Below, in pieces: positions 2,630 to 3,059 of a DNA stretch of 64,000 nucleotides. The stretch's first letter is position 1, and every line of letters begins with the position of its first letter. Origin of the DNA: a virus; the IMG/VR virus record IMGVR_UViG_3300027759_000050, positions 62,001-126,000 of that record; one strand, written 5' to 3'. Position numbers and translations under genes: made by a program. The notes under the pieces are model-generated. The model saw only the letters and a program-made list of their open reading frames with translations, was not told the origin of the DNA and ran no database searches.

Positions 2630-2660
2630 GCCGACTGATTGGATAATAAGGACAGTCGGC
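2630..2660 (-). terminator. Hairpin after the tmRNA coding piece
   Basis: Plus strand GCCGACTG (2630-2637) and CAGTCGGC (2653-2660) are perfectly complementary (8 bp, 15-base loop). The hairpin lies just past the tmRNA tag region and before the ribosome site of the next gene. There is no strong T-run, so it may be an RNA processing or stability element rather than a full terminator. Confidence 0.5.
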
Positions 2661-2676
2661 GAAACCTCAGCTTAGC

Positions 2677-2709
2677 TTAAGCAGCTAGGCGATATGCGGA
2701 GTCGTTTGC
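2677..2709 (-). other. tmRNA proteolysis tag reading frame
   Basis: Eleven codons giving ANDSAYRLAA and TAA. The AND start and LAA end match canonical SsrA tags. The resume codon GCA follows ...GTAAAT, comparable with the pre-tag context of other tmRNAs. The stop codon lies in the loop of a TAGCT-GCTTA-AGCTA hairpin, equivalent to helix P5. Confidence 0.88.
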
Positions 2710-2795
2710 ATTTACGTTTTTTTACTTTTATCGACTATCTGTGTCGGGTAGCCAATTAGTTTACTCATATGTCGGTCGATTACCGTATCATCCCC

Positions 2796-2861
2796 ATCAA
2801 AAGCATATTAGTTCTCAGTGACCGATGCCGTTAAATAACACCGATGTATCTAATATGCTTA
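2796..2861 (-). other. Excised spacer joining the two tmRNA pieces
   Basis: Spacer between the encoded CCA and the mature 5' end. AAGCATATTAG (2801-2811) and CTAATATGCTT (2850-2860) form an 11-bp hairpin that stacks on the acceptor stem. Such a closed loop is expected in a precursor that is cut by RNase P at 2795 and trimmed after the CCA. Confidence 0.8.
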
Positions 2862-3023
2862 TGGTGGAGATGGAGGGAGTCGAACCCTCGTGTCGCCATC
2901 GTTTCAAAAAATCAGTTTACTACCATTACAACACACTTAGGGAGATTCTCACTCCCGTACCCACAATGTGGGAACTTAGTCTAATTGCACAGCCGAGCCA
3001 TGTCCCAGTTCATAAGTGTGTTA
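2862..3023 (-). ncRNA. tmRNA acceptor piece
   Basis: First transcribed part. From its 5' end: CACACTTA (3013-3020) pairs with TAAGTGTG (2932-2939), enclosing a palindromic hairpin CCCACATTGTGGG and GGGAG..CTCCC; then the T-arm and CCA. A 7-base complement (CAATTAG at 2981-2987, CTAATTG at 2753-2759, minus-strand reading) could hold the two pieces together. Exact start is inferred from the promoter. Confidence 0.7.
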
Positions 3024-3030
3024 AGTATGT

Positions 3031-3059
3031 ATTATATCACAGGATTAGAGACTTGTCAA
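3031..3059 (-). promoter_or_regulatory. Sigma70-type promoter of the tmRNA
   Basis: Minus strand TTGACA (3054-3059), 17-base spacer, TATAAT (3031-3036): both hexamers are perfect consensus. The predicted start near 3023-3024 falls at the base of the first acceptor-piece stem, so the tmRNA has a dedicated host-type promoter. Confidence 0.85.

Follow-up and report, generated by a model that had tools for sequence, protein, structure and literature searches.

A circularly permuted tmRNA gene with a mosaic tRNA-like domain and a predicted folded leader in a T4-like phage

The minus strand at positions 2930-2630 of the window (the whole stretch of 64,000 nucleotides that was analyzed, part of a viral record of 160,679 bp) was identified with ARAGORN and an Rfam covariance model as a circularly permuted (two-piece) tmRNA gene. 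Judged from its sequence, this is a real permuted tmRNA of a T4-like phage, and it is very probably functional there. A 2022 paper had already reported two-piece phage tmRNAs (PMC9004378), so the kind is known and not new; this answers the question, left open in the initial annotation, whether a permuted phage copy has been described. New here are the wide occurrence of the gene in related contigs, the mosaic structure of its tRNA-like domain, and an undescribed folded leader.

Both searches by which the initial annotation had proposed to check itself supported it. ARAGORN called a permuted tmRNA with the tag ANDSAYRLAA, and RF04321 (tmRNA_permuted) matched the minus strand with 99.7 bits, about twice the curated cut-off of 47 (E 3.3e-18 for the 64 kb searched). 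The match extended over positions 2924-2677 and all 213 model positions, with three non-standard pairs marked in helices and an additional base close to the D-loop-like segment. The gene is ordered as acceptor (3') piece, intervening segment, and 5' piece. The acceptor piece (2862-2929, minus strand; 5' end approximate, as the Rfam match starts at 2924) contains the T-arm, the acceptor 3' strand, and an encoded CCA. The intervening segment (2796-2861), expected to be excised, is closed by an 11-bp hairpin (2860-2850/2811-2801) and carries TGAT just 5' of the predicted mature 5' end. The coding piece (2630-2795, minus strand; 3' end approximate) comprises the acceptor 5' strand, a D-loop-like part, the tag frame, and a 3' hairpin GCCGACTG/CAGTCGGC (2630-2660). 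In the direction of transcription, the mature 5' end GGGGATG (2795-2789) thus comes only after the T-arm, the 3' strand of the acceptor stem, and ACCA (2889-2862), as originally noticed, and the perfect 7-bp acceptor stem claimed earlier was found again: GGGGATG/CATCTCC is fully paired, G3.U70 included. Together with the T-arm and A73-CCA, it forms an alanine tRNA-like domain, the G3.U70 wobble being the pair read by alanyl-tRNA synthetase. The tag reading frame (2709-2677, minus strand, GCA..TAA) starts with an alanine codon and encodes ANDSAYRLAA before a TAA stop, the same tag as first read by eye. This stop had been placed in a loop; the predicted fold, in which only nested structures were considered around the tag, puts it at the edge of a hairpin loop.

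That the gene is phage-encoded was also borne out. Terminase, tail sheath, baseplate wedge, DNA polymerase, major head protein, gp33-like, gp59-like, and ribonucleotide reductase genes mark the record, by gene content, as a T4-like myovirus. Among named phages, its major head protein was nearest to those of Melnitz, Mosig, and cyanophage S-SKS1 (approximately 65% identity), and when 24 kb of the window served as query in a DNA search for the nearest phages, the sole result was a weak match to a pelagiphage ribonucleotide reductase beta gene. The record carries 28 tRNA genes for nearly all amino acids in one region (L006:4533-12445), apart from the tmRNA. Downstream of the tmRNA on the minus strand lie an unassigned ORF (2160-2603), an endolysin gene (1532-2083, PF07486 cell wall hydrolase), a gp33-like late-transcription coactivator gene (1103-1324, PF16805) starting approximately 1.35 kb past the tag stop, and a gp59-like helicase loader gene (501-1106, PHROG 269). 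The unassigned ORF has a TTG start, a GGAG Shine-Dalgarno sequence, and a signal-peptide-like beginning, and gave no Pfam or PHROG match; its product, encoded between tmRNA and endolysin, is short and secreted or outer-membrane-like. Several relatives have a similar small secreted ORF after the tmRNA, and others have a different gene there.

To collect relatives, 381 viral contigs were obtained by a gp59-like protein scan and the best 80 of the 381 were kept. Permuted tmRNA genes were detected in 57 of these 80 (48 by ARAGORN and nine more by RF04321 above its cut-off), a proportion that is not a general one because the 80 are the closest relatives and include some near-duplicates. Of the contigs, 43 included 3.5 kb or more of sequence on the upstream side of gp59; the gene was present in 36 of these and missing from the other seven, so the tmRNA is dispensable in some relatives. 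Every copy called by ARAGORN had the same orientation as gp59, and 0.9-3.7 kb separated its tag stop from the gp59 gene downstream. In Mosig, the tmRNA lies directly upstream of the same coactivator gene, and Melnitz is described likewise in PMC9004378. With the unassigned ORF and the endolysin gene between the two in the window, it is the neighborhood that is common to the marine relatives, not the exact adjacency.

Selection on the structure was evident among 35 distinct copies, the window copy included. The eight types of acceptor stem were all perfect and all had G3.U70. The hairpin annotated as joining the two pieces proved real: its closing helix was paired in 337 of 350 cells, compared with a mean of 221 and a maximum of 245 for shuffled partners. 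This helix begins at the base following CCA or one base past it; between its end and the mature 5' end lie four bases, which read TGAT or TAAT in 34 of the 35 copies. The 3' hairpin GCCGACTG/CAGTCGGC changed to GCCAACTG/CAGTTGGC in relatives, a compensatory replacement of G-C by A-T (L015, L023, and L058), and a 4-bp helix CGAC/GTCG became CACC/GGTG in L114, again a compensatory change. The tRNA-like domain of the window copy is of a divergent type, scoring 99.7 bits versus 114-156 bits in most relatives, and the same type is retained in L015 and L114 with compensatory changes. This covariation, together with the invariant alanine identity pair, shows selection for a working tRNA-like domain.

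The sequence, the structure, the charging determinants, and the conserved position all point to a functional, phage-owned two-piece tmRNA that would free ribosomes by means of host factors, which we consider highly probable. In the proposed course of events, a host-type RNA polymerase would start at the consensus promoter and transcribe the leader, the acceptor piece, the intervening segment, the coding piece, and perhaps the following genes. Once host tRNA-processing enzymes had excised the intervening hairpin, CCA would form the end of the acceptor piece and GGGGATG the start of the coding piece, and the two pieces would be held to each other by pairing in the acceptor stem and in a second helix. 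The tmRNA would be charged through G3.U70 by host alanyl-tRNA synthetase, and host SmpB with EF-Tu would bring it to stalled ribosomes. The ribosome would switch to GCA and add ANDSAYRLAA, whose terminal LAA would be recognized by ClpXP. The benefit would be that ribosomes stay free during infection, alongside a nearly full phage tRNA set. No SmpB gene was found in the record or in a set of 31 large relatives and reference phages, so trans-translation would use host SmpB. The T4 RegB endoribonuclease, a possible reason for ribosome rescue, gave no match, and the control genomes were equally without a match.

The same lack of SmpB genes would suit a decoy, a phage RNA that binds host SmpB or alanyl-tRNA synthetase and thereby blocks trans-translation. 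There is a precedent in molecules of the type encoded by phage DS6A, a tmRNA relative consisting of the tRNA-like domain only, with no tag frame (PMC4131195), in contrast to the window copy. A decoy would, however, need no tag frame, resume region, or 3' hairpin, and these were retained in every ARAGORN-called relative, the change in the hairpin being compensatory. We therefore regard a decoy as improbable.

Comparison of closely related phages demonstrated that the tRNA-like domain is mosaic. The phages with a gp59 98-100% identical to that of the window phage share only about 55% identity with it in this domain. In L010 and L013, gp59 was 98% identical and the tag region was 100% identical, whereas the acceptor piece, the intervening segment, and the start of the coding piece were only 58-59%, 49-50%, and 55% identical, respectively. 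The opposite was observed for L015, where gp59 was 85% identical and the acceptor, intervening, and coding parts were 99%, 97%, and 96% identical. Between the leader and the tRNA-like domain, L015 has an ORF with HNH-endonuclease PHROG matches, and the end of this ORF extends into the acceptor piece; the overlap was found in L017 as well, and the ORF had clear PHROG matches and no Pfam match. The window tRNA-like domain was thus probably acquired by recombination. Plausibly, to go by these alignments, it came with an HNH endonuclease that was later lost in the window phage.

The overlapping HNH ORFs, the strong mosaicism, and the seven relatives devoid of the gene would also fit a locus serving mainly as a landing site for homing endonucleases or recombination, with the tmRNA as a passenger of little benefit. 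We judge this about as improbable as the decoy, as the covariation and the invariant alanine identity pair indicate selection for a working tRNA-like domain. The third alternative, a host ssrA fragment, a chimeric assembly, or a tRNA-like false positive, hardly deserves credence: such permuted tmRNAs do originate from bacteria, but the conserved synteny, with the gene ahead of gp59 in 57 of the 80 contigs, practically refutes it, and the whole-model Rfam match and the absence of the tag from 84,980 species genomes (exact, with TAA stop) also speak against it.

The tmRNA is preceded in the window by a sigma70-type promoter, TTGACA-17-TATAAT (3031-3059, minus strand; 12/12 match, TG before the -10 box). 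The initial annotation had recognized this consensus correctly and had the promoter start at the acceptor piece; it actually lies approximately 95-100 nt upstream, and a folded leader of 95 nt separates it from the RNA. This structured 5' leader (2930-3023, minus strand) is predicted to form a closing stem of approximately 10 bp around three hairpins (-33.5 kcal/mol, z -3.1). It gave no Rfam family of its own up to E=10, part of it being overlapped by the unpaired upstream flank of the beta_tmRNA model. The leader was present in 11 viral contigs, and the leader-bearing relatives had the same promoter (11-12/12); in L062, L076, L079, and L081, the promoter directly abuts the acceptor piece. Leader pairing was retained in 98.8% of cells; in the covariation analysis, with eight sequences and few variable positions, 153 of 500 shuffles reached the score.

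In several relatives, the closing stem of the leader is followed by a T run, which is missing in the window copy; on sequence grounds, such a stem with a T run would suit an attenuator. L013 and L014 have a second folded element of like design between the leader and the acceptor piece (AACACTATA...TATAGTGTT, then a T run), and a lone chance-level Rfam match to it was on the opposite strand. The glutamine (glnA) riboswitch was considered and rejected: a search of the record with RF01739 at E 10 was negative, and no such riboswitch was seen near the gene or in the leader. Control of tmRNA synthesis by the leader is our preferred guess, held with low confidence. A broader proposal would make the leader an undescribed RNA regulator of the phage tmRNA (an attenuator, a riboswitch-like element, or a separate small RNA) and, at the same time, have neighboring HNH homing endonucleases help to exchange tRNA-like domains as a module, the leader, the tag, and the flanking genes keeping their positions; taken as a whole, this is possible rather than probable.

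ANDSAYRLAA, in any codons, as an exact match with a TAA stop, was absent from 84,980 bacterial and archaeal species genomes, a scan blind to tags ending at another stop codon and to genes located on short contigs. The tag is hence no obvious copy of a host tag, which bears on the suggestion in the initial annotation that the phage may want a tag of its own choice. An acceptor-piece pattern of a relative gave 0 matches in the genome scan for the host. Tag frames were retained in every ARAGORN-called copy, with 19 distinct tags that all end in AA, mostly in LAA. The fourth-last residue was other than alanine in nine of the 19. In E. coli, ClpXP reads the last three residues of the tag and ClpAP also the preceding one, so a substitution there may, as a conjecture, alter which protease takes the tagged proteins.

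The permuted form had been taken as a hint at the host lineage, but it is a weak clue. The tag style AND..LAA is betaproteobacterial, and the window copy matched the betaproteobacterial two-piece model RF01850 over its full length (E 1.6e-24), with the same gene order and helix pattern, but at 80.1 bits it stayed below the cut-off of 84 that L010, L013, and L058 reached. In that model, the acceptor piece is also immediately preceded by a promoter-like -10 box, a place taken by the 95-nt leader in the window copy. In Melnitz, the tmRNA type is unlike that of its host, as stated in PMC9004378; type is therefore a poor guide to the host.

According to the same paper, 402 of 18,146 phage genomes encode 133 unique tmRNA structures, 53 of which are two-piece; Melnitz and Mosig are among the marine or aquatic phages that account for 50 of these 53. 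A database paper of 2025, the source of RF04321, has 79 bacteriophage tmRNAs (PMC11915505). Methylophilales phage Melnitz (MZ577095) and Pelagibacter phage Mosig (MT647606) resemble the window phage in being T4-like, carrying a permuted tmRNA, and being devoid of SmpB. They differ in their tags (ANDNYVPVDYALAA and GEDNFALAA versus ANDSAYRLAA) and in having ssrA directly upstream of the coactivator gene. Within the sections of PMC9004378 that concern these phages, their tmRNAs are assigned to the alphaproteobacterial type, whereas the window copy scores best with the betaproteobacterial model; a glutamine riboswitch is reported for Melnitz, unlike in the window record, and no counterpart of the 95-nt leader is described for either phage.

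The analysis widens the range of the two-piece phage tmRNA: beyond a few marine isolates, it now includes a large environmental, apparently freshwater, group of T4-like phages, in which the tmRNA is, among the relatives examined, nearly a standard gene with a conserved neighborhood. The mosaic copies provide natural matched pairs, with the same phage background and a different tRNA-like domain or tag, with which one can ask whether the RNA serves to supply ribosomes, to tag proteins, or to interfere with the host's own system. Concrete, testable leads also come from the leader and from the variation at the fourth-last tag residue.

Several minor features were observed around and within the relatives' genes. 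A conserved small basic ORF of approximately 43 aa (MKVKKLIQKLNRAEFEHNLEKAKKFWMKLLKKSVKGKHTESVR), with weak PHROG matches, lies directly upstream of the tmRNA in L021-L066 and others. Small ORFs occur inside the intervening segment in L008 and L090 (57 aa), L009, L013, and L014 (23 aa), and L115 (Melnitz), and membrane-like ones in L057 (26 aa) and in L076 and L079 (24 aa); several have a Shine-Dalgarno-like start, and in several the conserved TGA just ahead of the mature 5' end is the stop codon. No such ORF occurs in the window copy. The tmRNAs of L044, L071, and L074 have no encoded CCA, the acceptor strand being followed by ATTA, so CCA addition would be needed. Finally, the T-loop reads GGCAGTA in place of TTCGANT in L023, L034, L058, L068, and L115 (Melnitz).
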